Below are positions 12,930-39,097 of a stretch of 40,739 nucleotides of DNA, piece by piece (position 1 is the first letter of the stretch; each line of letters starts with the position of its first letter). This stretch comes from a virus, in the IMG/VR virus record IMGVR_UViG_3300025122_005358, positions 1-40,739 of that record. One strand, 5' to 3'. The notes beneath the pieces were generated by a model, which worked only from the letters and a program-made list of their open reading frames with translations, made no database searches and was not told the DNA's origin. Made by a program: the position numbers and the translations under genes.

Positions 12930-14493
12930 TTGGATCCACTCTAAAAACTACGCCAGTATCTCGTATGATTTGTTGAGAACCTTGATCATCCACCATGAAT
13001 TCAAACGTATAATTTCTTCCAACAGAGAGATCACTCATGTAAAAATCAAAATACATTCCATTCTGGTCAGTAGATAGTTGAGTGGAATTATATGTCGTAT
13101 CAAAGGGAATCACAGTTTCATCAGAAGAAACATCTCTAACTGAATAGTACATCTTTGAAAGTATTAAACTTGGCTTGACAAGAGGACCTCTCGTAAGAGT
13201 TAAATCTAAGTCGATATCTTCAGCTACGACTCTAAATCTCACTTTTTCATTTAGAGAATACACAAACTTAGAATTTGTCACGTTCACGTTTAATCTTTTT
13301 GGTGAGTTTGAAAATGAGGACCTGTCGATTTTTGAAATCTTTAAAGTTCCTGATAAATATCCGACTGTGTTGTCGAAAGAGCTCCAGATCTTATCAAACG
13401 TCATAGAACCACTATCTCTAACGAAATCCAATATTCTTCGACCAAACGCTGCAGTTGCTGGTGTCGACGCTGAAATAGATGCTGTGCTATAAGAAGAAAT
13501 TGCAAAGGAGGCGGAATAGACTCCTGATACAAAATTCTGTCCTACCTTGTGCTGAGATGCTGAAATGACTTTCTCAAACGAGCCTGAAATTAATCTCAGC
13601 TTAAGACAGTTGCTACCAGCAACTTCAGATAATGCAGATCCTGAAAGAATATTTGACGCCTGGCCTCGGTGAAAATTATTTAGGAAGACAGATCCTGAAA
13701 GATCAAAGAAAAAACTTGCTGAATCATCTCTGACGGAATCATTATATCGAACTATTATTCTTGGTGTTATTCTAGTATTAGAACTATGCCTAGATGCAAA
13801 CCTCTTGACAAATCTAGTCCTAGTATCAGTTTCCTGGGTTCCTGAAAACGATATTCTAAAACCGTGATCAGGAATTTGATTTTTCAATGTCGCAGATACA
13901 ATGTTTGTAATATCCAGATTGAGATCTTCATCGCCTCTTGAAAAAGTTTGTGACTTCCATAAATCAACGACTCCGTTTCCGTCACTTAAATTTCCACTTG
14001 ATATAATATCAATGTCGTCAGAGCCTAAAAGTCCCTGCTTGTTGGCTCCTGATAAAAACCAAACATTTGCAGAATCTCCTGAAATGGACGCTGTCAGGAA
14101 ATTACTTGAATCTACGTCTTGAAACGTATAAAGATCCCGACCTTGCCCTTCATCAAAAGACTTAGAAAGAGGGAAGACAATAGCTTTAAAGTTAGATGGA
14201 AGTGTCTGACCACCTATCACATCAAACATTTTTAACGAGCAATTAAAAGAAGGATGAGAAACGTCTAAGATACTTCCGGTGAGAGACCTCAAAGGGCTAA
14301 GATCAAATTTCACAAGAATCCTAGACAGCTCCTGAGTTCCACTTGATTTAGACGGTAAGAAATTTTCCTCGTAGAGTTTAAACAAATCAAGGGTAGAAGC
14401 TAAACCAACGTTTGCATCGACGGCTCTAAACTGATTGCTTATGATTTTATCAGTTATGTATGTGTCCTTAGATGCGGTTAAGATCCTGTACAT
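12922..14493 (-). CDS. Virion protein with N-terminal DNRLRE/CBM96-like domain, 523 aa
   Basis: The first 250 residues follow the pattern of the DNRLRE (CBM96-like) beta-sandwich, a fold found in surface and carbohydrate-binding proteins: an opening segment with ASKDTYITDK, then NVGLASTLDLFKLY, SRILVKFDLSPLRS, and later repeated strands ending in TRITPRIIVRYND. The second half is Ser-rich and beta-rich and ends with YTFEFMVDDQGSQQIIRDTG, an Ig/FnIII-like closing strand. No enzyme motif or membrane segment is seen. The ATG overlaps the stop of the gp6-like gene (TAATG), and the gene overlaps the LamG protein gene by 8 bases, so it is part of the baseplate operon. It probably sits on the baseplate periphery and may bind glycans, which is inferred from the fold. 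Confidence 0.78.
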   Translation of the reverse strand: MYRILTASKDTYITDKIISNQFRAVDANVGLASTLDLFKLYEENFLPSKSSGTQELSRILVKFDLSPLRSLTGSILDVSHPSFNCSLKMFDVIGGQTLPSNFKAIVFPLSKSFDEGQGRDLYTFQDVDSSNFLTASISGDSANVWFLSGANKQGLLGSDDIDIISSGNLSDGNGVVDLWKSQTFSRGDEDLNLDITNIVSATLKNQIPDHGFRISFSGTQETDTRTRFVKRFASRHSSNTRITPRIIVRYNDSVRDDSASFFFDLSGSVFLNNFHRGQASNILSGSALSEVAGSNCLKLRLISGSFEKVISASQHKVGQNFVSGVYSASFAISSYSTASISASTPATAAFGRRILDFVRDSGSMTFDKIWSSFDNTVGYLSGTLKISKIDRSSFSNSPKRLNVNVTNSKFVYSLNEKVRFRVVAEDIDLDLTLTRGPLVKPSLILSKMYYSVRDVSSDETVIPFDTTYNSTQLSTDQNGMYFDFYMSDLSVGRNYTFEFMVDDQGSQQIIRDTGVVFRVDPNA

Positions 14494-16337
14494 TAGATAG
14501 CACTTCCTAAAATATCAAAATTTGGGTATCTCATTTCAAAGATGCCACCAGGAGGCCCAATTATCATTCCCTTTTGTATATTAGAAATTGGCTCAAACGA
14601 AAAATTACTATAAGATCTCATCCCAGTAGTTCCACTTATCCCAAAAAACGTTAAGTTTGATAGCGAAACGACATCAGGAACATTGATAATAAGATTTGTT
14701 ATATCAGAAATTATTATTGGCTCGTCAATATTAAAGTTTCCAGTTTGAAAATAATCCTTAATCCTGTTTATAACATTAGTAACTACTAAACTTCTATTAG
14801 ATGACGGATTTACAGAAACAATAAATTTTACTCCAATATTAATTACAGGAGAGTCCAAAATGTCAATAGCGTCCGATATAAGTCTAAACTTATTTAAATA
14901 AACTCTCATGTTCTTTTTTAACGTGTCGGAAGATGTAACCAACTGTTTATCTTTGTTTCTACTGACAATATAGACCTGAGATGACAATGGATTAATTAAG
15001 TTTGATCTAACACCTGCTCTAAAAACTCTCCCGAACTCAGAGGGCATTGAATAAATCCTTGCCAGCAAGTCTTGTTTAGTAACAATTCTAGATTGAGCAT
15101 TTCGAGACGAAGGAATTAAAGCCTTTAAGTCATTTAATCCTGGAGGTTCTTCTCCTCCAACCGCAGGTTCAACATTTTTTACTTCTAAACTAGACCTCAC
15201 AGAAGAAGATACATTGGGAGGCGGACTTTTTGGAAAGAAAATTTGTAACCCGTCAATTGTTCGAATACTCTCAGCAGCAACATTATGATGCAGACCTCCA
15301 CCTCTCCGATATTGAACAGTGATTGTTGTATTGATAGGAGATATTCCCATAGTCTGGGAGTTGAGAAAATTACCGGGATCGATAGAAAACTTTTTAAATG
15401 TCTTTTTACCGTAAAGTGGAATTGCAAACTGGCTAGGATCTGGAACCACGTCATTGTCTAATGTGTTGGCCTTTCCAGATCCAAACTGGAGTATTGACAT
15501 CTTGGTATTAAAATCAACTGTTTTGACATATCGATAAGGGGCAGCCTGTAGAACAAGAGAGTTGTCAACTTCTTCTCGATCGTAATCCATGTTTGGAAGA
15601 GCTCGGTACACCACATCTTCAGCAAGGGAGTCTACCTCATAATACTCATTCCCTGTAGAGTCCCTCACAGATGCGATAGCTGTAACATTATCGGAGTTTA
15701 ATGTAATTGTACGGTAAGGTACAAAAACATCAGGTATCGAAAAAGAATCAACGTGAGTTTCTCCTGACACACACTCGCCTGACATTCTCATTATAAATGA
15801 CAACGGGTTTCCGTTCGCATCAGACCTTCCAACTTGCATGGAGGCAAATAATAGACCCGATGAATCCCTTTGTGAATAGTCAACATCGTCAATTAATTCA
15901 AACCCTACACCGCTATTTGACCTGACTGTCGTTCCTTTCAAAATTACGGGTAAGGAATTTAAATCAGGAAAATAGACACTGTTTCTTACTTGTGACTGAA
16001 CCTCAATATAAAAATCAACATCGACAGTAGCAGGAGAAGATCCAACGATTGGGATTCCTGCAGTCCTTAAGAGCCTCTCAATATTTTTTGTCTCAGTGGC
16101 TGTCTCAGAATTTAATTCCTTATACTGGTGATCCAGATAAAAGGACATGACATCACCGACGTACGCTGCTAGATCTAGAAGAAGCCCTCCAACAGAAGGT
16201 TCAGAAAAATCCTCGATCCTGTCGGAAAAGTACATCTTGGCATACTGCAACAAGTCGGACCTGAACCCGTCGAAATCCTTATTCAGGTACGACCTGACCT
16301 TTGAAGACTTAACAATCTTTTTGGTGTTAACTGCCAC
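14493..16337 (-). CDS. gp6: Baseplate wedge protein, T4 gp6 / baseplate J-like
   Basis: This is a homologue of the central wedge protein that forms the inner ring of contractile-tail baseplates (T4 gp6, P2 gpJ). Residues 24-72 carry the characteristic start FRSDLLQYAKMYFSDRIEDF followed by PSVGGLLLDLAAYVGDVMSF. This is followed by the sandwich of beta-rich domains and, near residues 420-480, the ARIYSMPSEFGRVFRAGV region typical of gp6-like proteins. At 614 residues it is close to T4 gp6 (about 660). The start is GTG, chosen because a perfect AGGAGG lies six bases upstream and there is no earlier in-frame ATG. It is encoded two bases after gp25, as in T4-type baseplate clusters. Confidence 0.93.
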   Translation of the reverse strand: MAVNTKKIVKSSKVRSYLNKDFDGFRSDLLQYAKMYFSDRIEDFSEPSVGGLLLDLAAYVGDVMSFYLDHQYKELNSETATETKNIERLLRTAGIPIVGSSPATVDVDFYIEVQSQVRNSVYFPDLNSLPVILKGTTVRSNSGVGFELIDDVDYSQRDSSGLLFASMQVGRSDANGNPLSFIMRMSGECVSGETHVDSFSIPDVFVPYRTITLNSDNVTAIASVRDSTGNEYYEVDSLAEDVVYRALPNMDYDREEVDNSLVLQAAPYRYVKTVDFNTKMSILQFGSGKANTLDNDVVPDPSQFAIPLYGKKTFKKFSIDPGNFLNSQTMGISPINTTITVQYRRGGGLHHNVAAESIRTIDGLQIFFPKSPPPNVSSSVRSSLEVKNVEPAVGGEEPPGLNDLKALIPSSRNAQSRIVTKQDLLARIYSMPSEFGRVFRAGVRSNLINPLSSQVYIVSRNKDKQLVTSSDTLKKNMRVYLNKFRLISDAIDILDSPVINIGVKFIVSVNPSSNRSLVVTNVINRIKDYFQTGNFNIDEPIIISDITNLIINVPDVVSLSNLTFFGISGTTGMRSYSNFSFEPISNIQKGMIIGPPGGIFEMRYPNFDILGSAI

Positions 16338-16339
16338 CG

Positions 16340-16822
16340 CTATCCTCCTGCAAACAAGGTGACCTCGATCGCCTGGTTTTCTATTCCGAGAGAAGGAACA
16401 TCGTAAATAACTCTTATCCTTGCCTTGGATATAGACATGACTCCAGAGTTATCTGTGTCCGCCTCAAATGACTTAAGATTTAAATAAGGCATATACTTAC
16501 TAACTGACTCAGAAATGGCGACCATCGCCCTCTCCTCAAACTCTAGAATATCCTCGGTCACGGTATCGAAGACCATGGATCGGAGATCGGCCCCGAAGTC
16601 GTACAGGCCCAGTCTCTCTCCCTTGTTGGTAAGTATGAGGTTCCTAAGGTTATCCCGTATCTGATTAGCCCGGTCGTAGTGCATGGAAAAAATTCCGTCA
16701 CTAGACACGCCGAACCTGAGGGGGGTCTTTATTCCAATAGGGCTGGGCTGACTTAGAGCGTCAGCCTGCTCAGTGATTTCAGACTGTAGACGTCCTGAGC
16801 TCTTGAAGTTAAAATCAGACAT
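16340..16822 (-). CDS. gp25: Baseplate wedge protein, gp25/GPW family
   Basis: This is a homologue of T4 gp25 and P2 gpW, the small wedge protein that initiates sheath assembly on the baseplate. Residues 35-85 show the family signature: TPLRFGVSSDG, then HYDRANQIRDNLRNLIL and NKGERLGLYDFGADLRSMVF, with the conserved EF...G-L pattern replaced by the common Y-D-F-G-A-D-L form. At 160 residues it is slightly longer than T4 gp25 (132) because of a Ser/Gln-rich N-terminal extension. The start ATG has AGAGGGAA about six bases upstream. It is directly followed by gp6, and downstream genes are structural. An 89-base gap, the largest in this part, separates it from the preceding gene. Confidence 0.93.
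   Translation of the reverse strand: MSDFNFKSSGRLQSEITEQADALSQPSPIGIKTPLRFGVSSDGIFSMHYDRANQIRDNLRNLILTNKGERLGLYDFGADLRSMVFDTVTEDILEFEERAMVAISESVSKYMPYLNLKSFEADTDNSGVMSISKARIRVIYDVPSLGIENQAIEVTLFAGG
16344..16349 (-). promoter_or_regulatory. Shine-Dalgarno AGGAGG for the gp6-like gene
   Basis: On the minus strand AGGAGG is followed by a six-base spacer and the GTG start codon at 16337. It lies within the last codons of the gp25-like gene. This is the strongest ribosome binding site I saw in the window and it fixes the non-ATG start of the gp6-like protein. Confidence 0.8.
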
Positions 16823-22878: not shown

Positions 22879-23661
22879 CTACGTACAGTCAGACGTGTCT
22901 TTAAATTCGCAATACTTGCATGAAAGCCTGTTCTTTAAAAAGACGCCTTTTTTGACCGACTTAATCATGTTATCAACTATTTTTAAAGATTTAGTCCTAG
23001 ACTTAGGTCCAACAGAAACTGTTACAAGTTCACACCTTTTTCCATCTTTAGCGGATCTCTTGAGAAGGACAAATCCAGTTCGAACTTGACTCTCCGGTAT
23101 GTTGTGTTTTTTAGACCAGAACACTTTATAAAGCCTGGGTTGTGATGAAACGATAAAATCTCTCTTCTTGAAAGGAGACCATCCCCACGAAGTTGTCTTC
23201 CAGTCTAAGATCCAATAGAGAAATTTTCCATTTTTACCAGGAACTTTTAAAATAGCGTCGATGAAACCTTTAAACTTAAGGTCATGATTATCAATAGATT
23301 CGAATAGTTGTTCCTCAGCATCGTAAGGTTCCCAACCAGGAAAAGTTTCATCTAGAAAACTAGGAACCTCAGAAAGGATTCTTTCAGCAGACTCACACCA
23401 AGACTCAACATCATCAAACCCGTTCTCTTTCCACTCTTTTCTAATCATGTTAACAGCTATCTCAGGTTTCATTTTCTTGGTCTTAATGAAAGATTCACAA
23501 GACTCATGGACAGCAGTTCCAAAAAAAGTATGGACATTTCCTTCAAACGTCCCCTTTTTTTCAATGTATAGAAGTTTGTGTCTCCACGGACACTCAGACC
23601 AGTTCTTTACTTCTGAGAACGAAACATGGCCTTTTCTAGTGGGAAAAATATTTTGTATCAC
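22879..23661 (-). CDS. PD-(D/E)XK nuclease with Cas4/AddB-type cysteines, 260 aa
   Basis: This is a predicted iron-sulfur single-strand exonuclease or recombination nuclease. Numbering from the chosen start, the catalytic motifs are G48-x3-H52-E53, D135 in KGFIDAI, D153-W-K155 in ILDWKT, and the Q174-x3-Y178 helix in SSQPRLYKV. Four cysteines are placed as in Cas4/AddB proteins: C24 in the first helix and C248-x2-C251-x7-C259 at the C terminus, a likely [4Fe-4S] site. I chose the GTG at 23661, which overlaps the TGA of the upstream epimerase (GTGA). A TTG at 23700 would add 13 residues. It is the only DNA-acting enzyme in the glycan island. The role is probably phage recombination or replication, and no cas1, cas2 or CRISPR is present. 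Confidence 0.88.
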   Translation of the reverse strand: MIQNIFPTRKGHVSFSEVKNWSECPWRHKLLYIEKKGTFEGNVHTFFGTAVHESCESFIKTKKMKPEIAVNMIRKEWKENGFDDVESWCESAERILSEVPSFLDETFPGWEPYDAEEQLFESIDNHDLKFKGFIDAILKVPGKNGKFLYWILDWKTTSWGWSPFKKRDFIVSSQPRLYKVFWSKKHNIPESQVRTGFVLLKRSAKDGKRCELVTVSVGPKSRTKSLKIVDNMIKSVKKGVFLKNRLSCKYCEFKDTSDCT

Positions 23662-24632
23662 AAGTTCCACCAATCTAAGGTTCTCTCCACACCGTCCCAA
23701 AACTCAACAATGGGTTCATACCCTACCTCTTTGGTAAATTTTGAAAAATCTCCCAGAGTGTGCATTATATCACCAGCTCTCCACGGAGCATCATGAACAT
23801 CAATGTTTTTAAATCTTTCTTTCATAAATTGTAAAATCTCCCTATTTGTAAAACTTTTCCCACAGCACACATTGTAACAATCACCGTTAAAACCCTTAGA
23901 AGACTGTGATGTTATCACGTTTGCATGAACAACATTTTCAACATAGCAAAGATCCCGGGTCTGACCGCCATCACCGTCACTTCGAAGAGTTGTTCCGTTC
24001 TTTGTGGCATGGCACCAAGCAGACAAAGCAGTCGAGTAAGAAGAACCTGCAAATTGACCAGGTCCAAACACGTTGAAGTATCTTAAGCATACGGTGTCTA
24101 GGTCATACAACTTAGAAAAGAGGGAACAGTAATCCTCGATCACACTTTTTTGTAACGCATACGGAGATCTTGGATCTTTCTTACAGAAACTTGGAGTTGG
24201 CATAAGTTCTGCAGTTCCGTAGACAGAAGAAGAGGAAGAAAAGATAAAACGGGAGACGTTATCAATACAAGACTCCAGAAGTTTTACAGTTTTTCCAACA
24301 TTGGTTTCGTTAGATTCATAGGGATGGTCAACAGAGTAAGGAACCCTGGGGATGGCGGCAACATGAAAGACCGTGTCGTATTTTTTGTTTTTAATCCTAG
24401 AGAGTGCTAGATAGTCATTGGCGAAATCTCCAAGAAAAAACTTCTTATATTCCTCTCCAGGAGAGTAATGACAATCGGAACGATCCACACGAAGAAATCC
24501 TAGATCCTGCACAAGGGACTCGTGCCCACTTGAAAGATCATCAATCATATCAACATCGTGACCGTCTTTAAGTAAACGACGACAAAGATTAGATCCTATA
24601 AATCCAGCACCTCCGGTGACTAAACATCTCAT
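23658..24632 (-). CDS. NAD-dependent nucleotide-sugar epimerase (SDR), 324 aa
   Basis: This is an extended short-chain dehydrogenase, most like UDP-hexose 4-epimerases (GalE/WbpP type). It has the Rossmann motif TGGAGFIGSNL (residues 6-16), the acidic cofactor residue in MIDDLSSGH, the catalytic Ser/Tyr/Lys set in FSSSSSVYG and Y158-ALQ-K162, and substrate-side LRYFNVFGPGQ. It would interconvert C4 epimers of a UDP-sugar, but reduction of a keto sugar is also possible. The ATG overlaps the TGA of the RmlB-like gene by four bases, and its own stop overlaps the nuclease start. The length is normal for the family. Confidence 0.85.
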   Translation of the reverse strand: MRCLVTGGAGFIGSNLCRRLLKDGHDVDMIDDLSSGHESLVQDLGFLRVDRSDCHYSPGEEYKKFFLGDFANDYLALSRIKNKKYDTVFHVAAIPRVPYSVDHPYESNETNVGKTVKLLESCIDNVSRFIFSSSSSVYGTAELMPTPSFCKKDPRSPYALQKSVIEDYCSLFSKLYDLDTVCLRYFNVFGPGQFAGSSYSTALSAWCHATKNGTTLRSDGDGGQTRDLCYVENVVHANVITSQSSKGFNGDCYNVCCGKSFTNREILQFMKERFKNIDVHDAPWRAGDIMHTLGDFSKFTKEVGYEPIVEFWDGVERTLDWWNL

Positions 24633-25567
24633 TCCATGGATTCCTTATAAAACTTTATTGTTTCATCAAGAGACTCTTTAAAATCGTAAAACTTAGTCTC
24701 TTTACACACGTTTAAAGCCTTCTTGTTGCATATTGAATATCTCAAGTCATGACCTAATCGATCAGGAACAAACTCAATAGAATCTTCAAAGTTAACTCCT
24801 TCTAAGTTGCATATTAATTCTACAATGTCTAAGTTGGTTTTTTCATTTCTTTGTGTAAGGTTATAAACTTGATTAATTTCCCCTTTTTCTAAGATTTTCC
24901 CAATCATCTGTACGCAATCTTTAACAAAAAACCAGTCTCTCACGTTTTTTCCATCACCGTACACAGGGATTTTTTTACCAGAAAAAAGTGATCTTAAGAT
25001 AGTTGGAATAAACTTTTCTGGATGTTGTCTAGGACCGAAATTATTACTCATTCGAACCATCATGTACTGAACCCCATACGTGTTGTGGTATGCTTGAATA
25101 AAGTGTTCAGCAGAGGCCTTTGTTGCAGAGTAAGGATTCTTAGGAGATAAAAGATCACTTTCAACAAACGACTTGTTGAAACACGATCCATACACCTCAT
25201 CTGTGGAAATCTGAAACAATTTACTTCCTGTTTTTCGACAGCACTCAAGAAGGGATTTAACCCCTAGTATGTTAGAATGAATAAACCTATCGCAAGACAG
25301 TATCGAATTATCAACATGCGTCTCAGCGGCGAAGTTGATAATCCAATCAATGCTGTGTGACGAGCAGTATTTTATCATATCTTCCGTATTGCAAATGTCG
25401 TTCTTATACCATTTAAAATTTTTATTATTTAAAGCTTTTTTAATGTTGTTTTCAGATCCTGCATACGTTAAGCAATCAACACCAACTACTGAATATCCCA
25501 AATCTAAAAAGTGATCAGTAGCATGACTTCCAATGAACCCAGCGCAACCTGTAATTAAAATACTCAC
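24629..25567 (-). CDS. rmlB: dTDP-glucose 4,6-dehydratase-like (RmlB)
   Basis: The protein is predicted to convert dTDP-glucose (or CDP-glucose) to the 4-keto-6-deoxy sugar, the branch point for rhamnose, fucosamine and dideoxy sugars. It has GCAGFIGSH (7-15), NFAAETHVDNSI (78-89), the RmlB signature STDEVYG (121-127) with Asp-Glu acid-base residues, and Y146-SAT-K150, followed by MSNNFGPRQHPEKFIPT and NVRDWFFVKDC. At 312 residues it is shorter than E. coli RmlB (361) but within the range of the compact form. The start is GTG at 25567, overlapping the stop of the 58-residue gene (GTGA). It is paired in the island with RmlA-like, RmlD-like and RfbH-like genes. Confidence 0.92.
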   Translation of the reverse strand: MSILITGCAGFIGSHATDHFLDLGYSVVGVDCLTYAGSENNIKKALNNKNFKWYKNDICNTEDMIKYCSSHSIDWIINFAAETHVDNSILSCDRFIHSNILGVKSLLECCRKTGSKLFQISTDEVYGSCFNKSFVESDLLSPKNPYSATKASAEHFIQAYHNTYGVQYMMVRMSNNFGPRQHPEKFIPTILRSLFSGKKIPVYGDGKNVRDWFFVKDCVQMIGKILEKGEINQVYNLTQRNEKTNLDIVELICNLEGVNFEDSIEFVPDRLGHDLRYSICNKKALNVCKETKFYDFKESLDETIKFYKESME

Positions 25568-25740: not shown

Positions 25741-27066
25741 CTATTTGTTTTCCAAGTTAAAAAGATACTTTGTAATCACTTTGTTAATATATTGAATTGT
25801 CTCACCTGTGTAATTGGGGGAACACCCAACAAAAAAAACTCTACTCAGAACCAGATTAGCATTTGGATACTTTCTAAAATCATCCAGGTGCCTATATGCT
25901 GGGTGCATTAAAATGTTTCCTGCGAAGTAATTTCTTGTCTGGATTCCGTTTTCTTCCAGGAACCTAACAAGCCTACCTTTAAGTTCGCCACTCTCACAGA
26001 CAACAGGGACCCCAAACCAGCTTGTTTCCGCCTCGGGAAGCTCTGTAAGAACTCTAACACCTGAAATCCTCTCAAGAGAGTTGTGAATTTTTTCCTTATA
26101 ATCTCTCCTCTTCCGATGTATCTCAGGTAATTTTTCAATCTGAACTAGTCCGATCGATCCTTGTAGATCTAAGGGTTTAAGGTTATATCCGACATTAACA
26201 AAATAGTACTTGTGATCAATAACCTCATCGTATCCATCAATCCACTTATCAAATCTTTTTCCGCATGTTCCACATGAAAGAAGGTTAGAGGCTCCAACAC
26301 AGTAACAATCCCTTCCCCACCAGGCTAAACTTCTTGCAATTCTTATAATTTCTGAATTGTTAGAAGATACCATTCCCCCTTCTCCCGTTGTAATGTGATG
26401 AGCTGGATAGAAAGAATAAGAACTTGCGACAAAGTAAGATGAAATATTTTTTCCTCTCCACCTGGTTCCTAAACTATCGCAATTATCTCCAATTATCTTG
26501 ATTCCTCTTGGTTCACAAATAGACCGTAGTCGGTCTAGGTCATATGGATTTCCCAAAACAGGGGACGAAAAAACGGCCACAGTCCTGTCAGTTATTTTAG
26601 ATTCAACGTGATCCAAGTTCCAATTAAGATCTTTTAAACTAATGTCTACAAATACGGGAGTTAAATTATTTTGAATCAAAGGATTTAATGTGGTTGGAAA
26701 TCCGACAGAAGAAATTATTACTTCACTTCCATCCGACCAGTTAAAATACTTTTTAAGAGCTCCAATCATGACCAAGTTTGCTGAAGATCCGGAGTTAACC
26801 ATGAGAGAATCTTTAGAATCTACAGATTCAGAAAACTTTTTCTCAAATTTTCTTACTTGTTCCCCTGAAGAAATCCACTTCCCTGTTAAGACGGACTTCA
26901 TTATTGCAAGTATTTCTCTCTGATCCCACACAGGACCGGAATAAAGAACTTTTGGAAACGCACCTTTTTTTGAAGATTTAGGTCCCGTTATGTACTCAGG
27001 AAGTTCTTCATGATTCTCAGAGAGATCTGATAAAAATCTTTCAATGCTTTTTTCTATGTCTGACAT
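25741..27066 (-). CDS. rfbH: RfbH/DdhC-like 4-keto-6-deoxyhexose 3-dehydratase with Fe-S cysteines
   Basis: This protein has an aspartate-aminotransferase fold but lacks the PLP lysine. At that position it has His (SFYPAHHITTGEGG, H223/H224), as in the E1 enzyme that removes the C3 hydroxyl on the way to 3,6-dideoxyhexoses. Four cysteines follow the E1 iron-sulfur pattern I recall (C-x57-C-x-C-x7-C): here C196, C254, C256 and C265, with an additional C268, in a GRDCYC...CGTCGKRF block. The PLP-binding Asp is D194. The length (441) matches RfbH (437). The partner reductase (E3, DdhD) is not in the window. The start ATG lies inside the end of the SDR gene (13-base overlap). The substrate nucleotide (CDP or dTDP) cannot be told. 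Confidence 0.88.
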   Translation of the reverse strand: MSDIEKSIERFLSDLSENHEELPEYITGPKSSKKGAFPKVLYSGPVWDQREILAIMKSVLTGKWISSGEQVRKFEKKFSESVDSKDSLMVNSGSSANLVMIGALKKYFNWSDGSEVIISSVGFPTTLNPLIQNNLTPVFVDISLKDLNWNLDHVESKITDRTVAVFSSPVLGNPYDLDRLRSICEPRGIKIIGDNCDSLGTRWRGKNISSYFVASSYSFYPAHHITTGEGGMVSSNNSEIIRIARSLAWWGRDCYCVGASNLLSCGTCGKRFDKWIDGYDEVIDHKYYFVNVGYNLKPLDLQGSIGLVQIEKLPEIHRKRRDYKEKIHNSLERISGVRVLTELPEAETSWFGVPVVCESGELKGRLVRFLEENGIQTRNYFAGNILMHPAYRHLDDFRKYPNANLVLSRVFFVGCSPNYTGETIQYINKVITKYLFNLENK

Positions 27067-27890
27067 AGTTGTCTAATTCCTGACTCAAGATCGACCTGGG
27101 ATTTGAAACCTAAGGATGTTAATTTTCTATTGTCCAAATACATGTCTTTAACTTGAACAATCTTGTGAAAATCAGGTGGAGGGACGTGGCTGATCTGGCT
27201 AGTAGATCCTGTAAATTTAACCGCCATATCAATTAAATCCTTGAAAATTACAGGGTGTCCGCTACCCACGTTTGTAATTTCATTAACTGATGATGCATTA
27301 TCCATGATTAGTTTAATGGCACGACAAGCGTCATCAACGTGCATATAGTCTCTTATAAACTCACCCCCATGATACAAGTCCACTGGTTCATCTTTTTTTA
27401 ATTTCTCAACAATGTACTGAAGGGCATTCTTTTTCTTTGAAGCCCTTTCATCATGGTAACCATAGACATTACAAAGCCTAATGATCCTAAACGGAATATT
27501 AAAAGTTTTACAGTAAGATTCAACAATGCCCTCGGCACATTTTTTAGTAATTGAATAAAACCCCTTTGGATAACAGGGAGACGTTTCTTTTGCAGGGAGG
27601 TTGGTGTCTCCATAAACAAACCACGAGCTTATAAAGTTAAACTCACAATCTTTTTTAGATCTTCGACAAGACTCTAAGACATCTATTAAAACAGTCAAAT
27701 TTGTATCAATATCTAGATGGGGATTCGTAAACACATTGTAGTTGTGAACAGTACTTATAAAATACAAAATCTGTCGCGACTTAGGAGACATGTCTCCTCT
27801 AAGGATTCTGAATGACTCTTCCGGAAATAAATTGCAAAATCTACTTCCAATAAATCCCGTCGATCCAAAAATCGATATTTTATTTTCCAT
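27054..27890 (-). CDS. SDR epimerase/reductase acting on nucleotide sugars, 278 aa
   Basis: This is an extended SDR with FGSTGFIGS (residues 8-16), an SSWFVYGD segment and Y112-SIT-K116, followed by IIRLCNVYG and GGEFIRDYMHVDDACRA. The last is the R-D-x-x-x-V-D-D element of sugar-nucleotide SDRs. It is shorter than GalE (about 338) and in size resembles CDP-abequose/paratose synthases, which reduce the 3,6-dideoxy-4-keto product of RfbH. Lying directly upstream of the RfbH-like gene, that role is attractive but not proven. I chose ATG 27890, which overlaps the end of the RmlD-like gene by 11 bases. A TTG at 27899 would add three residues and cannot be excluded. Confidence 0.84.
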   Translation of the reverse strand: MENKISIFGSTGFIGSRFCNLFPEESFRILRGDMSPKSRQILYFISTVHNYNVFTNPHLDIDTNLTVLIDVLESCRRSKKDCEFNFISSWFVYGDTNLPAKETSPCYPKGFYSITKKCAEGIVESYCKTFNIPFRIIRLCNVYGYHDERASKKKNALQYIVEKLKKDEPVDLYHGGEFIRDYMHVDDACRAIKLIMDNASSVNEITNVGSGHPVIFKDLIDMAVKFTGSTSQISHVPPPDFHKIVQVKDMYLDNRKLTSLGFKSQVDLESGIRQLCQT

Positions 27891-28695
27891 AGTTTTCAAG
27901 ACACCACCTAAGAGACTCTTGTCCGGATCTAGGAACGAACCCTGTCTTTTGTAATTTTTCAGTAGAGAGAAGAGTGTTTACCCTCTTGTTTGGAAGTCTG
28001 TCTAGAAGTTCTTGGTAAGAAATTTTGTAAACCTCCATCTCGGGGTTCAAAACCTCCTTGATTGCCAAGGCGATCTCGTATGGAGTCACCGACCCTGTGT
28101 TACAGCAATTAAAAACTCCCGTGTGATTGGTTTTTAAAAGGTGTTCTATCATGTCCTTAAAGTCCTCAATACAGGTCAGTGAATTTGGTTCATCTATTGC
28201 ATAAAAAGGATTAAAAGACAAAAATTTTGTAATCATGTTAGTCGGGTGGACAACCGACGAGATCATTTGTCTGGGGCGAAGTATTAAGAAATTAGAATAC
28301 CCAAAATTTTGAATAAATTGGTCTGCCCACATTTTTGTCCTTGTATACCACACGCCAGGTGTGGCATCATCCTCCTCTGTCATGATCTCGTGGTTTCCAT
28401 CAAATAAGCACCCACTACTTATGTGAACTAATTTAACACCCTGACTAGAACAGGCTTTCAAAAGGTTTATAGCCCCAAGGGTGTTAACATCATAAGCTGT
28501 AGATTTATTTTCTTGACAGTACTCTAAATTAGTCTTAGCAGCACAGTTAATTGCAATATCGGGCTGATATTGTCGAAGTATAAACTCTATGTTATCCGGG
28601 TCTGTAATGTCACAAACTTTTCTTGGTATAATTTGAGAACTCTTATCTTGAATAATCTGAGCTACTTTTCCACTTCCAAAAATAATTTTTTTCAT
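27880..28695 (-). CDS. RmlD-like dTDP-4-keto-sugar reductase, 271 aa
   Basis: The protein is predicted to be an NAD(P)H-dependent reductase of 4-keto-6-deoxy nucleotide sugars. The Rossmann loop is atypical (GSGKVAQ, residues 7-13). RmlD-type features follow: DITDPDNIEFILRQYQPDIA, then INCAAKTNLEYCQ, LVHISSGCLFDG (equivalent to ISTDYVFDG) and Y117-TRT-K121, then a long C-terminal substrate domain ending in PRSGQESLRW. The length is near RmlD (about 290). It sits one base after the RmlA-like gene, so both belong to the same branch. No RmlC 3,5-epimerase is visible, so the product need not be L-rhamnose. Confidence 0.85.
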   Translation of the reverse strand: MKKIIFGSGKVAQIIQDKSSQIIPRKVCDITDPDNIEFILRQYQPDIAINCAAKTNLEYCQENKSTAYDVNTLGAINLLKACSSQGVKLVHISSGCLFDGNHEIMTEEDDATPGVWYTRTKMWADQFIQNFGYSNFLILRPRQMISSVVHPTNMITKFLSFNPFYAIDEPNSLTCIEDFKDMIEHLLKTNHTGVFNCCNTGSVTPYEIALAIKEVLNPEMEVYKISYQELLDRLPNKRVNTLLSTEKLQKTGFVPRSGQESLRWCLENYGK

Positions 28696-28696
28696 T

Positions 28697-29428
28697 TTAC
28701 CTGTCCTGATTCATTAAAAGATTAGCGTTTCTATAAGACTCGTGAGTTCCAGCATCAGACCACCACCCATCTAAGATTTTAAAACTAGTGATACCGTTAT
28801 TAATGTATAAATTGTTAAGATCTGTAATTTCATACTCACCCCTACCTGACTTCTTAAGAGATTTTAAGAATTTAAATAAATTTGTATCATACAAATAAAT
28901 CCCGGAGACACAAAGGTCACTCTCCGGATTTTTAGGTTTTTCGACTATTTTTATAATTTTACCGAGTTTCAAGGAAGCGATTCCAAACCTTTTAGGATCA
29001 TCAACTGGAGTGAGAGTCAAGAGACAACAGGGAGTATTCTCATTTTCCTTTTTTACTTTTAAGAAACTCTGGATCGATTCATGTAAAGAACCTTGGAACA
29101 CATTGTCTGCTAACATTACAACACAGTTGTCATCCCTGCAAAAAGATTCACAAAGCAACAATGCTCCGGCAATTCCATCAGGTCGATCTTGCACCTTGTA
29201 AGTTATATTACAGTCATAATCTTTTCCACTTCCAAGAAGAGTAATCATATCTCCCATGTGTTCAGTTCCAGTTATGACAATTATATCTTTAATCCCACAC
29301 TCAACAAGTTTCTGTAAACTATGGAGAATCATCGGTCTCGCACCGACGGGCAACAAGTGCTTGTTTGTTACTTTTGTTAAAGGTAGCAACCTGGATCCAG
29401 TTCCACCAGCTAAAATGACGCCTTTCAT
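28697..29428 (-). CDS. rmlA: Glucose-1-phosphate nucleotidyltransferase, RmlA-like short form, 243 aa
   Basis: This enzyme activates glucose-1-phosphate with dTTP (or CTP) to make the nucleotide sugar for the RmlB/RfbH branch. The nucleotide-binding N terminus is MKGVILAGGTGSRLLPLTKV, with the lysine in the TNKHLLPVG loop. It is followed by QDRPDGIAGAL (80-90) and the metal-binding Asp108 in MLADNVF. The EKPKNPESDL and SDAGTHESYRNA segments are the sugar-site motifs. At 243 residues it is a compact form lacking part of the C-terminal dimer region of E. coli RmlA (about 290). The sequence around GGTGSRLLPLT favours thymidylyl- over cytidylyltransferase. Its stop is one base from the RmlD-like start. 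Confidence 0.92.
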   Translation of the reverse strand: MKGVILAGGTGSRLLPLTKVTNKHLLPVGARPMILHSLQKLVECGIKDIIVITGTEHMGDMITLLGSGKDYDCNITYKVQDRPDGIAGALLLCESFCRDDNCVVMLADNVFQGSLHESIQSFLKVKKENENTPCCLLTLTPVDDPKRFGIASLKLGKIIKIVEKPKNPESDLCVSGIYLYDTNLFKFLKSLKKSGRGEYEITDLNNLYINNGITSFKILDGWWSDAGTHESYRNANLLMNQDR

Positions 29429-32271: not shown

Positions 32272-33231
32272 CTAAGTCACCCTTGACTTAATCCATTGGT
32301 ATGTTTTTTGGATGCCAAGAGATAAAGGCTCAGCAACCTTCCATCCTATCTTTTCGCCGTATAATTCATTGTTAGATCTTCTTCCTCTAACACCTACAGG
32401 TCCTGAGATATTTTTGATTTTAATATCTTTTCCAGAAATGTCAATAATCATTTGAGCGAGGCTGTTGATGGAAATCATTTCTTCAGATCCAATATTAACC
32501 GGACCAGAAAAATCTGATCTCACTAATCTCAAAGTTGCTTCTATACACTCGTCAATATATAGAAAAGATCGGGTCTGTTTTCCATCTCCCCATATTTCAA
32601 TCGAAGAATTAGAATTAGCCTCACAAACTTTTCGACATATAGCGGCAGGAGCTTTTTCCTTTCCGCCGGTAAATGTTCCTTCGGGACCAAAAATATTATG
32701 ATATCTAGCAACCTTAACATTTAGACCGTAATTTCTCATAAACGAAAAATAAAGTCTTTCACTAAATAACTTCTCCCATCCGTATTCACTATCAGGAGCA
32801 GCAGGATATGCAGACTTCTCTACACAGTTTGGATTGTCAGGATCTGTCTGGTTTCGCTTGGGGTATATACAAGCTGACGATGAATAAAATAACTTTTTAA
32901 CATTCTTACTAACAGCTTCATGAGCAATGTTAAGATTGATCAGTGCGGAATTATGCATAACGTTTGCATCGTTATCCCCGGTAAAAATATACCCAGCACC
33001 TCCCATGTCGGCGGCGAATTGATAAAGTTCGTCAAGATGATCGTCTATAACATTTGCAACAACAGAAGGATCTCTTAGGTCACCTATTACAAATTCGTCA
33101 GCTAGAGATGGAGAGTATTCAGGATGTTTTAAATCAACCCCTTTAACCCAAAACCCCTCTTCCTTAAGCCTTTTAACCATATGACTTCCTATGAAACCAC
33201 CAGCACCACAAACTAATGCTCTTTTCAACAT
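32272..33231 (-). CDS. GDP-mannose 3,5-epimerase-like enzyme (GME family)
   Basis: The extended SDR is closest in motif order to plant-type GDP-mannose 3,5-epimerase, which makes GDP-L-galactose and GDP-L-gulose. Key blocks are GAGGFIGSHM (9-18), QFAADMGGAGYI (71-82), SSSACIYP with Cys121, Y150-GWE-K154, YHNIFGPEGTF, GGKEKAPAAICRK with Lys193, and IEIWGDGKQTRSFLYIDECI. The spacing Cys121-Tyr150-Lys154-Lys193 is identical to that recalled for the Arabidopsis enzyme (Cys145, Tyr174, Lys178, Lys217). The C terminus GPVGVRGRRSNN also matches the family. It is shorter than plant GME (about 377) because it lacks the N-terminal extension. The ATG has GAGGAG four bases upstream. A substrate shift to another GDP-sugar cannot be excluded. 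Confidence 0.88.
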   Translation of the reverse strand: MLKRALVCGAGGFIGSHMVKRLKEEGFWVKGVDLKHPEYSPSLADEFVIGDLRDPSVVANVIDDHLDELYQFAADMGGAGYIFTGDNDANVMHNSALINLNIAHEAVSKNVKKLFYSSSACIYPKRNQTDPDNPNCVEKSAYPAAPDSEYGWEKLFSERLYFSFMRNYGLNVKVARYHNIFGPEGTFTGGKEKAPAAICRKVCEANSNSSIEIWGDGKQTRSFLYIDECIEATLRLVRSDFSGPVNIGSEEMISINSLAQMIIDISGKDIKIKNISGPVGVRGRRSNNELYGEKIGWKVAEPLSLGIQKTYQWIKSRVT

Positions 33232-33273: not shown

Positions 33274-34311
33274 TTAATGTGTAATCATGCATTTGATTAT
33301 ATTATCTCTATAAAAAGAAGCTTTTTCCAGAGCAATCTGTGTTTCCTCTAGTGAAAATTTATGAGTTACCATTTTTTCAATTCGATCACTGTCTCTTGAA
33401 AACATCGTAACACAGTCATCAAGAGTCCTGTTAGATCTTCTAATGTTAAAAATACTCATTTCTTTTGTTCTCATTTTATGTGGGTTATATAGCAAATAAT
33501 CTTCTTCCGGTATTCCAACTAGCCCTATTTTAGAACTAATAGAGCCACACTGAACACATCCATCGATTGATTCGTTGTTACCAGCAGCATCAAATAAAAC
33601 TTGGACGCCTTCTCCGTCAGTAAGTTTTTTAATTTTTTTAGAAACATCTTCTACACTGTCCTTTAAGTGAAAAGAATCAGTTGCTCCCATTTCTTTGGCA
33701 AAATCACACCTGTACTTTAACTTGTCAACTAAAAAAATGTTTTCTATTCCAAATTTCTCCAATACTAACATTAAGCACAAGCCCACAGGTCCCGCACCAA
33801 AAATAATTGATCTGTTAGTCGGATGAGGAGATATCAAATTAACTGCGTGGAGAGCCACACTGAGAGGCTCTAAAAGCGAAGCAGTTTCAAAGCTCATGCT
33901 GTTTGGAATTTTACACAGTTGCAAGTCTGAAACTTTAACATAGTCTGAGAGTGCTCCAGGGGAAGTGGCTCCCATGAACGATCCTTCTGTGCACAAGTTA
34001 TGTCTTCCTTTAAGAGACCACCTGCTAGTCACACAAGACCTACCGGGCTCGACTGCAACTCGATCCCCAGGTTTAAATTTTTTATTTCTACCGGGATCAA
34101 CAACTATTCCAGATGGTTCGTGACCCATGTGCATCGGAAGTGGCTGTTTAAAGGATCCTAGACCTCCGTGTCTAAAATAATGAAGATCTGATCCACATAT
34201 TCCGGAGGCCATTATTTTTACTAGTATCTCATCACTAGAAAGAGGTAGGACTTCCTCCTCAAAAATTTCAACCCTTCCAATGTCTACCAGTTTAATAACC
34301 CTGTTTTTCAT
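33274..34311 (-). CDS. Zinc-type medium-chain dehydrogenase, 345 aa
   Basis: This is an NAD-dependent alcohol/polyol dehydrogenase of the sorbitol/threonine dehydrogenase group. The catalytic zinc ligands are Cys39 (SGICGSDLH), His64-Glu65 (GHEPSG) and probably Glu148 (LLEPLS). The cofactor loop is GAGPVG (172-177) and Asp196 in FLVDKLK suggests NAD. The structural-zinc lobe keeps only Cys93 and Cys107 of the usual four Cys, so the second zinc is probably lost. Such enzymes occur in pathways that oxidise a sugar hydroxyl to a ketone, which could prepare a substrate for the adjacent aminotransferase. The ATGA overlap with that gene and the GME-like gene downstream put it in the GDP-sugar part of the island. 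Confidence 0.87.
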   Translation of the reverse strand: MKNRVIKLVDIGRVEIFEEEVLPLSSDEILVKIMASGICGSDLHYFRHGGLGSFKQPLPMHMGHEPSGIVVDPGRNKKFKPGDRVAVEPGRSCVTSRWSLKGRHNLCTEGSFMGATSPGALSDYVKVSDLQLCKIPNSMSFETASLLEPLSVALHAVNLISPHPTNRSIIFGAGPVGLCLMLVLEKFGIENIFLVDKLKYRCDFAKEMGATDSFHLKDSVEDVSKKIKKLTDGEGVQVLFDAAGNNESIDGCVQCGSISSKIGLVGIPEEDYLLYNPHKMRTKEMSIFNIRRSNRTLDDCVTMFSRDSDRIEKMVTHKFSLEETQIALEKASFYRDNIIKCMITH

Positions 34312-35435
34312 AGTGATTTTTCCGCCTCTTTTAAAGTTTCACAAACGTACCTACACTCTTCGTCAGAAAGTTCTGGGTAGAGAGGCGGACAAACATGGTA
34401 TTTTGACCAGATGTCCGTGTTTTCAAACTTTTCACCTCTAAACAAGTTTTTAAACCTAGGTTGTTCGTGTACAGGAATTGAATAAACCTCTCCCGTTAAA
34501 GATACGTTTCTTTCCTTGCAAAAAGACTTTATCCTAGATCCAGGTATCTGGGTTTTAACGATACACTTGTAATACGAGCACGATCCGGACTCCTGTGTAA
34601 CAATCTCATACGTTGTTCCGGAAAGTTCCTTCTCATATATTTCTACTAATTGATTTCTTCTATCTATTCTATTTTTAACTCTTTCACATTCAAGGTATCC
34701 AAAAAGTCCTGTAAATTCATTAATTTTTCCATTTGTTCCCCCTGAAAGCAGGCAAAGACCAGAATTATTCGGATCTCTTCCAAAATCCTTTAAAGACCTT
34801 ATTTTCTTAGCTAGATCATCGTTGTTTGTTGAAATCATACCACCCTCGCCGGTGGTCATGACTTTTGTTGGAAAAAAACTAAAACATCCGACATCTCCAA
34901 TCGTTCCAGCGAAGCGATCTTTAAAACAGGATCCGTGAGCGTGAGCAGCGTCCTCAACCAGAGCAACGTTGTATTCATTGCATATTTTTTCAATTTTTTC
35001 AATGTTGCTAGTAATAATTCCTCCAACGTGGACTAAGATAACAACTGCGGTGTTGTTGTCTATTTTTTTTCTAAGGGACACTGGATCTACTGCTCCAAAC
35101 TTGGCGTCACAATCAACTAGATCTAGAATACCTCCAGCATTTAACACAGACACTGCCGTTGCAAAAAACGTATTAGAAGGAACAATAACTTTTTTTCCCT
35201 CAACTCCAATAGATCTAAGTGCTATCTCAAGGGCTGTTGTCCCCGACGTAGTTGATATACAGTTCCTAGACTTGATAATCGAAGAAAAATTTTTTTCAAA
35301 TTTTTTTACATACTCTCCTTCAGATAAGCTATCAGATAACAGTATTTCAGAAACACCATGTTTAAATTTTTCAATAAAGCTATCGCTAAAATTTAGCCTA
35401 TAAATTGGAACGGTGTGTTTATCTTTTTTTACCAT
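34308..35435 (-). CDS. DegT/DnrJ/EryC1-type sugar aminotransferase, 375 aa
   Basis: This is a PLP-dependent aminotransferase that converts a keto-sugar nucleotide to an amino sugar. It has STTSGTTALEIALRS near residue 61, PLP-phosphate and stacking elements in FATAVSVLNAGG, D162 in VEDAAHAHGSC, and the PLP lysine K191 in FFPTKVMTTGEGGM. I chose the ATG at 35435 because AAAGGAAA lies four bases upstream and the 12 residues before it overlap the formyltransferase gene. An upstream start at 35471 is also in frame. It overlaps the formyltransferase end by 17 bases, so the two are probably coupled. The amino group it adds may be the one formylated by that enzyme. The sugar position (C3 or C4) is not readable. 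Confidence 0.88.
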   Translation of the reverse strand: MVKKDKHTVPIYRLNFSDSFIEKFKHGVSEILLSDSLSEGEYVKKFEKNFSSIIKSRNCISTTSGTTALEIALRSIGVEGKKVIVPSNTFFATAVSVLNAGGILDLVDCDAKFGAVDPVSLRKKIDNNTAVVILVHVGGIITSNIEKIEKICNEYNVALVEDAAHAHGSCFKDRFAGTIGDVGCFSFFPTKVMTTGEGGMISTNNDDLAKKIRSLKDFGRDPNNSGLCLLSGGTNGKINEFTGLFGYLECERVKNRIDRRNQLVEIYEKELSGTTYEIVTQESGSCSYYKCIVKTQIPGSRIKSFCKERNVSLTGEVYSIPVHEQPRFKNLFRGEKFENTDIWSKYHVCPPLYPELSDEECRYVCETLKEAEKSL

Positions 35436-36384
35436 AGCTTTCCTTTGGCAAAAAATCTTCCCAAAATTCAACCGGGATTGCGAAAACTCCTTTTGAAACT
35501 GAGTCTAAGGTCAGACCTTTTTTAACTTGAGAATAGTCGTTATCTAACTCGCAAACTGCATGACCCTGTTTAGTAGAAACAACAACCTTTCTGTGTTCCT
35601 TAAAAATAACCTCTCCAGGTTTATAGGGATTTTTTTCATCAATTGTTTCAATCACAGTCAAAAAAATATCCTGACCTAAGACTCTAGAGCTTGCTGGCTT
35701 GTATGGCGGAAAAATCATTGCATTTGAAAACCTCTGAATAAATTCATTTTTCCACTTCCAAGACACGTAACAATCGTTAGGCATGCCGGCAGAATGATAA
35801 ACCCCTCTATTTCTCGGTATTTCACAATACTTTTTCTTTTCAACCAAATTAATAGACTTCTTAAGATGTCGAGGAGCATCAGTGCTGAGGTTTTGATAGA
35901 CGGATTGTGACGTTTGGTTTTGATCCTGGGATTTTAAGTAGACCTTGTTTATGACAGGGCCTAAATCGATATCTTTAGTAACTTGATAGGTTGTAAATCC
36001 CTGAGGTTCGTTCTTGAGGATGGCCCACATGACTGGATTACACCCTCTGTTGTCGGGAATAAGTCCAAAATGCGTGTTGATCACACCGTACTTAGGAGAC
36101 TCCAAAAGAGGAGAATGAACGATTCCATCATACCCACCAATTATACAAAGGTCAACTTTGGATGACTCTTCTAACAACAAAGAATCACCTGGTAAAACAT
36201 TTCCTAGGTTCTTGATCTTTGAATTTAAAATCACTGTTTGCAATTTACTTCGAGCTTCCGTAGAATGAAGGGACCTTCTTTTTTTCTCTGTGACGAATTT
36301 TACATCATATCCCAATCTTAAAAGTTCAAGTAAGCATCCCACACCATAGTCGCTTATTCCTAAAATCCCTATGGAACGAATCAT
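35419..36384 (-). CDS. Sugar N-formyltransferase-like protein, 321 aa
   Basis: The protein is predicted to transfer a formyl group from N10-formyltetrahydrofolate to an amino sugar. The formyltransferase core is present: an N-terminal Rossmann-like strand (SIGILGISDYGVGCLLELL), the Asn/His motif N103-T-H105-FGLIPDNRGCNPVMWAI, and the DxG motif K-D-I-D140-LGPVINK; Asn, His and Asp are the catalytic triad of this family. The C-terminal third (from about 225, with YKPGEVIFKEHRKVVVSTKQ) resembles the OB-like C-terminal domain of methionyl-tRNA formyltransferases and sugar formyltransferases. Overlap with the aminotransferase gene favours the sugar role over tRNA formylation. The start abuts the stop of the preceding GT gene. 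Confidence 0.85.
   Translation of the reverse strand: MIRSIGILGISDYGVGCLLELLRLGYDVKFVTEKKRRSLHSTEARSKLQTVILNSKIKNLGNVLPGDSLLLEESSKVDLCIIGGYDGIVHSPLLESPKYGVINTHFGLIPDNRGCNPVMWAILKNEPQGFTTYQVTKDIDLGPVINKVYLKSQDQNQTSQSVYQNLSTDAPRHLKKSINLVEKKKYCEIPRNRGVYHSAGMPNDCYVSWKWKNEFIQRFSNAMIFPPYKPASSRVLGQDIFLTVIETIDEKNPYKPGEVIFKEHRKVVVSTKQGHAVCELDNDYSQVKKGLTLDSVSKGVFAIPVEFWEDFLPKESYGKKR
35439..35446 (-). promoter_or_regulatory. Ribosome binding site deciding the aminotransferase start
   Basis: AAAGGAAA on the minus strand is followed after three bases by ATG 35435. It supports this ATG over the in-frame start at 35471, which would lie deeper in the overlapping formyltransferase gene. Confidence 0.6.
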
Positions 36385-38327: not shown

Positions 38328-39097
38328 TTTCTAACCTTCCTACAGACGAAACAAATCTTATAGTCCTCATTTTTAGCTGGTATTTTTAGATTATGACCCT
38401 TGCACAAAATGACTATCTCAAATCCAAGTGATAGTAAAATCTCCTTAATAACTCTTGGGGACCACAAAGAGTGATCTAAGACGGAATTAAATACTTGATC
38501 TTTTCTCTCTAGATAACTTTTTATCTTAACTCTCGAGTTCATCAAATCAACATCACAACTTGTTGTTGTTACGACCTTTTCTCCTGAAGAAAATATTTTT
38601 TCAACTTTTCTATCTCTAGGTAAATCTTTCGCAACAGCAACCGAGTTCCACATGTCAAAAATAAGAACACCGTCTTCGACAAGATAGCTAGAAATTTTGG
38701 AAAAGAAGGATTGCAAATCACCTAAAAGATGAATGTGATTGACCACATTAAACATGCTTACAATAAGATCAAATTTTTTAAGATTTCTTTTTTGACAAAA
38801 ATCAAAATCTTGACTGGTAAAAAAATTACAGTCTGAACTTTGGGTCGCTCTTTTTTTTAAAGCCTCGTCAATCATTTTTTTAGAAACATCAACTCCAACG
38901 ACATCTATGTCTTGATTTGATAAAATCAAACTATGTGTTCCTGTTCCACAACCTACATCTAAAATGGAACGCGGGTCCTTAGAATGTATTGACTTATAAG
39001 ACTTTAAGATAAATTCAACCTCTGAAGGGTATTGTTTATCACCATACAGTTCATCGTACATCTCAACAAATTCCGTATTATCGTACGTTTTTGACAT
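38324..39097 (-). CDS. Class I SAM-dependent methyltransferase, 257 aa
   Basis: This is probably a sugar or small-molecule methyltransferase. Motif I is ILDVGCGTGTHSL (residues 45-57), the acidic post-I strand is VVGVDVSKKMID (66-77), and motif IV-like KFDLIVSMFNVVNHI follows near residue 110. The N-terminal helix YDELYGDKQYPSEVEFI is like those of methyltransferases found in sugar clusters. I chose ATG 39097: the longer in-frame start at 39271 would overlap the aminotransferase by 194 bases, whereas ATG 39097 overlaps it by only 20 and has GAGGA just upstream. The methyl acceptor (O- or N- on a deoxy sugar) is inferred from context only. Confidence 0.87.
   Translation of the reverse strand: MSKTYDNTEFVEMYDELYGDKQYPSEVEFILKSYKSIHSKDPRSILDVGCGTGTHSLILSNQDIDVVGVDVSKKMIDEALKKRATQSSDCNFFTSQDFDFCQKRNLKKFDLIVSMFNVVNHIHLLGDLQSFFSKISSYLVEDGVLIFDMWNSVAVAKDLPRDRKVEKIFSSGEKVVTTTSCDVDLMNSRVKIKSYLERKDQVFNSVLDHSLWSPRVIKEILLSLGFEIVILCKGHNLKIPAKNEDYKICFVCRKVRK

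Follow-up and report, generated by a model that had tools for sequence, protein, structure and literature searches.

A candidate iron–sulfur sugar 3-dehydratase on a viral genome fragment, from a mostly viral clade beside RfbH/E1

A gene at positions 25741–27066 of a virus record appears to encode a relative of the iron–sulfur sugar dehydratase E1, which raises the question of what sugar nucleotide such an enzyme would act on in a phage, and where its electrons would come from. The window analysed here is the entire record, a linear piece of 40,739 bases. The initial annotation described the product as an RfbH/E1-type iron–sulfur 3-dehydratase that needs an E3 reductase encoded elsewhere. Three substrate types of 3-dehydratase, i.e., CDP, GDP and dTDP-2-deoxy, are named in the portion of PMC8987622 consulted. 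Automatic rfbH/ddhC/ascC and CDP-dehydratase labels in viral surveys and phage records are already known, and the excerpted gene lists of two viral surveys carry the former (PMC10653327, PMC11295528). Our search of the open-licence literature found no study of the clade described below, of its loop or of its partners.

An E1-like active site with a longer cysteine loop

The gene and the residues on which its reading depends are as follows.

25741..27066, minus strand: dehydratase-like gene, a single open frame of 441 codons; resembles iron–sulfur NDP-4-keto-6-deoxyhexose 3-dehydratases, x11-loop clade
26398..26400, minus strand: H223, the His that replaces the PLP lysine; counterpart of E1 H220
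26479..26481, minus strand: C196; aligns with E1 C193
26263..26307, minus strand: cluster loop C254-Y-C256-x11-C268; C254, C256 and C268 invariant
26272-26274, minus strand: C265, an additional, dispensable Cys within the loop; varies among relatives

The 441-aa protein matches the Pfam DegT/DnrJ/EryC1/StrS family at 3.4e-74, and a sequence search of the PDB places Yersinia E1 at the top (7.6e-73), values which together rule out a chance match; ColD, the GDP-4-keto-6-deoxymannose 3-dehydratase, comes second at 4.8e-50. A profile search against the PDB likewise returns E1 as the best match (6.2e-88). The AlphaFold model (pLDDT 89.2) superimposes on E1 structure 3bb8 with Z 49.7 and an rmsd of 2.3 over 409 residues, tied with E1 3bcx (Z 49.5) and followed by ColD (Z 46.6). 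However, Lys-type transaminases match the model at Z 46.4 and lower, just under ColD, so the fold alone is no guide to chemistry, which is told, as far as the sequence can be read, by the change of Lys to His and by four cysteines. Judged by sequence and predicted fold, the window protein is a DegT-fold sugar dehydratase nearest to Yersinia E1, and E1/RfbH-like iron–sulfur 3-dehydratase chemistry is the best reading of its residues. That part of the initial annotation stands, whereas RfbH orthology was rejected: the protein scores 356.2 bits against the NCBIfam RfbH model (NF011936), below the curated cut-off of 423, and it falls in a clade apart from RfbH (support 100/100).

In common with E1, AscC, DdhC and RfbH, the protein combines the DegT fold and a His in place of the PLP lysine with four aligned cysteines, at 32% identity over the fold alignment. 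The active-site stretch reads Y220-P-A-H223-H224, and H223 aligns with E1 H220, the residue mutated in the E1 H220K structure 3bb8, which agrees with the replacement of the PLP lysine by His noted at the outset. The two other DegT paralogues in the window retain the Lys, as FFPTK (34308-35471) and FFADK (39078-40172).

The protein has cysteines at 184, 196, 254, 256, 265, 268, 357 and 415. In the 3bcx chain the E1 motif is C193-x57-C251-x1-C253-x7-C261, with an additional C257 in the loop; in the window protein it is C196-x57-C254-x1-C256-x11-C268, with an additional C265. All four positions thus align, but the last interval is four residues longer than that of E1, rather than one residue longer as originally counted from C265. 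In both HMMER alignments, E1 C261 (NTC-KKRF) pairs with C268 (GTC-GKRF), leaving C265 in a gap. Across an alignment of 138 proteins, C268 is Cys in 83/83 viral and 25/25 bacterial relatives, and C265 in 81/83 and 4/25, respectively; the two viral exceptions carry Asn, as read directly in a cyanophage isolate (L111), and C265 is missing from the phage S-H68 and RB11-B proteins. C265 was therefore rejected as the fourth ligand on the grounds of the alignment gap, its rarity in bacteria and the Asn in two viral proteins, and the proposed cysteine set holds for C196, C254 and C256, with C268 taking the fourth place. A cluster with six or more cysteines was also considered, since C184, C196, C254, C256, C265 and C268 are all invariant in the window protein and 80 viral relatives, and was rejected because C184 and C265 are not constant in the bacterial part of the clade.

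The four motif cysteines are invariant in all 138 aligned proteins, including the 108 clade members (83 viral, 25 bacterial). The last spacing is 11 in every one of these 108 and 7 in 30/30 classical RfbH proteins, five of which read 61 rather than 57 in the first spacing. Of 48 additional E1-like proteins, drawn from two other phyla, 47 also have the short loop, and the remaining one (L227) was missed by the pattern. Because the viral proteins were picked for their likeness to that of the window, some of their uniformity follows from the choice, and the motif argument rests on the bacterial members and on the proteins of cyanophage isolates.

A sister clade of RfbH in phages and a few bacteria

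As sequences are compared here, the proteins with the x11 loop form a mostly viral sister clade of RfbH. A tree with 24/82 viral, 22/25 bacterial and 12/30 classical rows separates the 46 x11 rows from the 12 classical RfbH rows at 100/100, with long branches and a midpoint root. The window protein groups at 100/100 with that of locus L005, to which it is 67% identical, and L006 comes next, on an open fork. Scanning IMG/VR with a sequence pattern turned up 517 confirmed relatives, and the best 80 were fetched for comparison. A similar scan of 84,980 prokaryote species genomes yielded 26 loci, which include Prochlorococcus contigs from single cells that may be of phage origin; both scans use exact short peptides, and their counts are lower bounds. 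One locus (L110, 212 residues matched) was excluded from the neighbourhood and motif counts, and weaker RfbH matches (G278, G185, G177) were left out.

When 292 Cyanobacteria and 296 Bacteroidota genomes were sampled at random, clade proteins scored 747–755 bits and all others 396 or less. Clade-level scores occurred only in the genome serving as the centre of each sample, and lower-scoring E1-like proteins alone were found in 58 other Cyanobacteria and 19 other Bacteroidota genomes.

Annotated phages with 57–59% identity to the window protein are S-H68, S-B05, RB11-B, S-B43, RN05-S and AG-345-D19, and one uncultured phage has 56%. The protein of Synechococcus phage S-H68 (58.5% identical) belongs to the same clade and has the same x11 loop; unlike the assignment argued for here, it and its relatives are annotated as CDP-4-dehydro-6-deoxy-D-glucose 3-dehydratase. 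The sugar islands of RB11-B (L111) and S-H68 (L112) hold the same dehydratase, annotated as an aminotransferase or a CDP enzyme, together with RmlB- and RmlC-like genes, a small cytidylyltransferase and several fucosyltransferases.

Gene neighbours and the nucleotide sugar

The genes of nucleotide-sugar metabolism close to the dehydratase gene in the window include the following.

24629..25567, minus strand: RmlB, dTDP-glucose 4,6-dehydratase-like; STDEVYG; 337 bits, NCBIfam cut-off 365
27054..27899, minus strand: partner SDR, 281 aa; Ser91/Tyr115/Lys119 conserved, 4,6-dehydratase Asp-Glu pair absent
27880..28695, minus strand: RmlD-like ketoreductase; 110 bits, cut-off 224; 20-base overlap with the SDR
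28697..29428, minus strand: RmlA, glucose-1-phosphate thymidylyltransferase-like; TIGR01208 212 bits, cut-off 320; cytidylyltransferase model 51

The first 13 bases of the dehydratase gene are shared with the 3′ end of the SDR gene upstream, and 173 bases separate the dehydratase gene from the start of RmlB downstream. The SDR is probably a 4-ketoreductase or an epimerase; its model (pLDDT 92.1) matches many NDP-sugar epimerases and reductases at Z 29–31, values so close that the fold does not tell one from the other. Against the PDB, the window RmlB has 10 matches at 1e-50, exclusively dTDP-glucose 4,6-dehydratases, and RmlA has 21 at 1e-30, exclusively thymidylyltransferases. The genes of the window itself thus favour dTDP over CDP as the carrier of the sugar. 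The dTDP reading is weakened, however, by the scores of RmlA and RmlB under their NCBIfam cut-offs and by the few viral loci with an RmlA.

The block of RmlA, SDR, E1-like gene and RmlB is common to the window, L005 and L006, and RmlA and RmlB flank the clade gene, beside the SDR, in four bacterial loci as well (L095, L097, L100, L109); the RmlD-like ketoreductase was not found in the other loci examined. The queries for neighbours were the window's own genes together with RfbF (three proteins), RfbG (three) and E3-type proteins (four), the window being counted among the 83 viral loci. The partner SDR lies within 10 kb in 60/83 viral and 20/25 bacterial clade loci and in 0/20 classical ones. 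Among the 108 clade loci, 45 have it immediately upstream and co-oriented with the clade gene, a further 32 have it within 5 kb, also co-oriented, and 27 lack it. RmlB lies within 10 kb in 27/83 viral and 4/25 bacterial loci, RmlA in 3/83 and 5/25, and all 32 RmlB-like ORFs carry STDE[VI][YF]G. As RmlB-type genes are common among bacteria (11/14 control genomes), it is the linkage of RmlB, not its mere presence, that counts as evidence. In a complete Nostocales chromosome, which has a cytidylyltransferase, an RmlB above the cut-off sits 0.4 kb upstream of a second clade copy, and no CDP-glucose dehydratase was found at 1e-50.

We note that the clade differs from E1, AscC, DdhC and RfbH in its x11 rather than x7 loop, its separate place in the tree, its SDR partner and the lack of CDP-glucose or E3 genes nearby. 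RfbF, RfbG and E3 genes occur within 10 kb in 16/20, 16/20 and 4/20 classical RfbH loci, respectively, whereas none of the three was found within 10 kb of a clade gene in the 83 viral or the 25 bacterial loci.

These counts bear on two readings that name a different nucleotide. An ordinary CDP-type RfbH/DdhC/AscC gained by a phage, which would take host-made CDP-4-keto-6-deoxyglucose and a host E3, would fit with E1 being the closest solved relative and with the CDP-glucose pair seen in some bacterial carriers. A cytidylyltransferase above the cut-off occurs in 9/26 carrier genomes and a CDP-glucose 4,6-dehydratase in 5/26, and the claim that carriers lack a CDP pathway was dropped because of the former count; in one Bacteriovoracaceae genome (G059), some 17 kb separate the CDP pair from the clade gene, the pair has no classical RfbH next to it, and RmlA and RmlB are adjacent. 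However, the score under the RfbH cut-off, the separate clade, the lack of CDP-glucose genes within 10 kb in 108/108 loci and the absence of matches to the CDP-glucose models TIGR02622 and TIGR02623 in the 17 viral records tested (of 83) make this reading unlikely. CDP-glucose genes were likewise not found in the S-H68 and RB11-B records, and in another carrier genome (G047) the CDP pair is accompanied by its own classical RfbH. A GDP-sugar enzyme, i.e., an iron–sulfur counterpart of ColD taking GDP-4-keto-6-deoxymannose from Gmd towards a colitose-like sugar, is made possible by Gmd lying 4 kb from the dehydratase in the window, which also has a GDP-mannose 3,5-epimerase gene, and by GDP-mannose epimerase-like genes near 52/83 viral members and Gmd within 10 kb of 7/83. 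ColD itself resembles the window protein in its His for Lys and its fold, but in the account excerpted from PMC8987622 it has no iron–sulfur cluster, whereas C196, C254, C256 and C268 are present throughout the clade. Moreover, Gmd is near just 1/25 bacterial members, and the direct neighbour in the window and the nearest phages is RmlB, not Gmd; we regard the GDP reading as quite unlikely.

The GDP-mannose 3,5-epimerase gene (32272-33231, minus strand) matches PDB 2c59 at 1.6e-86 and has homologues at about 60% identity in 52/108 loci; such a gene already appears in the cyanophage gene lists excerpted from PMC10436341.

Electron supply, proposed route and phage context

No PF00175 (E3-type reductase) or PF00111 (2Fe-2S ferredoxin) domain was found in the 40,739-base linear record, which bears out the earlier remark that E3 is not in the window, for a linear piece rather than a complete genome. 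PF00175 is likewise absent from 49 viral records (47 from IMG/VR and two cyanophages), which are mostly fragments and include the complete 210-kb cyanophage RB11-B; the same search was positive in 10/14 control genomes. PF00175 proteins occur in 22/26 bacterial carrier genomes, with a single one in the Nostocales chromosome, and in the flanks of the clade gene in 0/26 bacterial loci. Among the 20 carrier proteins fetched, three (L148, L151, L153) begin, by eye, like what we take to be E3-type ferredoxin-reductase fusions, and others presumably resemble PetH or NqrF. The missing E3 near clade genes is weak evidence, because E3 is near only 4/20 classical RfbH genes.

A dedicated E3 need not be required. 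SpnQ, a characterised iron–sulfur dehydratase acting on dTDP-4-keto-2,6-dideoxyglucose, works with ferredoxin or flavodoxin reductase pairs in place of E3, as the consulted section of PMC8987622 describes, so that the initial statement of a need for E3 was too strict. Likened to the window enzyme by that description only, SpnQ would share the iron–sulfur cluster, the dTDP sugar and the lack of a dedicated E3, and would be the nearest model for how the window enzyme works; unlike the substrate proposed here, that of SpnQ has no 2-hydroxyl, so that a 2,3-dehydratase must act before it. Given the lack of PF00175 in viral records, the single protein in Nostocales and the precedent of SpnQ, a general electron donor would be the simplest reading for the clade, and the gene content of the carriers is compatible with a ferredoxin or flavodoxin supply. 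A PF00111 ferredoxin is encoded in 15/50 viral records. In all 13 IMG/VR records having one, it lies downstream of the dehydratase on the same strand, at 0.46 to 15.8 kb, and in four (L007, L012, L049, L065) within about 1.5 kb; this arrangement may come from a gene order common to cyanophages and not from a functional link.

On balance, we consider it probable that the window protein is a PMP- and [2Fe–2S]-dependent C3-deoxygenase of a dTDP-linked sugar, working like SpnQ with a host (sometimes phage) ferredoxin and belonging to a distinct, mostly viral clade beside RfbH/E1; the cluster, the activity, the dTDP substrate, the ferredoxin donor and the use of the sugar are what we infer. In the proposed route, RmlA would make dTDP-glucose and RmlB would convert it to dTDP-4-keto-6-deoxyglucose, with which the dehydratase and PMP would form a Schiff base; H223 would abstract the C4′ proton, the C3 hydroxyl would be expelled, and a cluster on C196, C254, C256 and C268 would deliver two electrons singly. 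The partner SDR would then reduce C4 of the product, dTDP-4-keto-3,6-dideoxyhexose, and phage glycosyltransferases would use the resulting sugar. Electrons would come from a general host ferredoxin or flavodoxin and its reductase, as with SpnQ, and some cyanophages could supply their own ferredoxin.

Two further readings concern the chemistry itself. An SpnQ-type bifunctional or aminotransferring enzyme would aminate the keto sugar, rather than deoxygenate it, when no reductase is at hand; SpnQ does transaminate without a reductase, but E1 and ColD fail to do so in the same test (both in the portion consulted of PMC8987622), and the window already has two Lys-type aminotransferases, so we hold this to be very unlikely. 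That the cysteines are structural, e.g., binding zinc, in a protein with no redox cluster is suggested by the loop being four residues off that of E1 and by the clade's cluster being a prediction from sequence. Two of the three spacings and all four positions nevertheless match the E1 ligands, invariantly in 108/108 members, which makes this reading the least credible of those weighed.

Extending the deoxygenase reading, we tentatively suggest, with some doubt, that a fourth type of NDP-sugar 3-dehydratase may be found mainly in phages, one with a lengthened loop that acts on dTDP-4-keto-6-deoxyglucose to give a dTDP-3,6-dideoxyhexose with ferredoxin electrons, cyanophage PetF bringing light-driven electrons into a viral surface-sugar pathway. 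If true, a dTDP enzyme retaining the 2-hydroxyl would make a fourth substrate type, and 3,6-dideoxyhexoses could be carried by nucleotides other than CDP and GDP. The 'rfbH' labels given automatically in lists of viral genes may in that case misname the nucleotide sugar, and some cyanophage ferredoxins would gain a possible new client enzyme.

The neighbourhood of the dehydratase gene also includes glycosyltransferases (labelled by eye), the two Lys-type aminotransferases, a formyltransferase, Gmd and the GDP-mannose 3,5-epimerase. For the phage, virion decoration and a host-surface change blocking other phages are both possible purposes. The products of 14493-16337 and 16340-16822 are baseplate wedge proteins by their matches to PHROG tail families, which makes a phage with a contractile-type baseplate likely. 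Two large proteins of the structural region (2161-4614 and 5627-8311, minus strand) have no tblastn match in 50,697 phage records, which suggests a little-sampled phage group.

At 34308-36384 (minus strand), a Lys-type DegT aminotransferase gene and one for a Formyl_trans_N protein, with an ADH-like gene adjacent, make an N-formyl amino sugar route possible; the second Lys-type DegT gene is at 39078-40172. Beside the sugar island, a frame at 22879-23700 (minus strand) encodes a protein of a PHROG exonuclease family (phrog_69, 6.7e-13) with a Cys-rich tail, and shares 43 bases with the frame of the next SDR gene. A 1233-aa protein of the tail region (9228-12929, minus strand) has a Laminin_G_3/concanavalin-like domain (1.7e-07) and could bind sugars.
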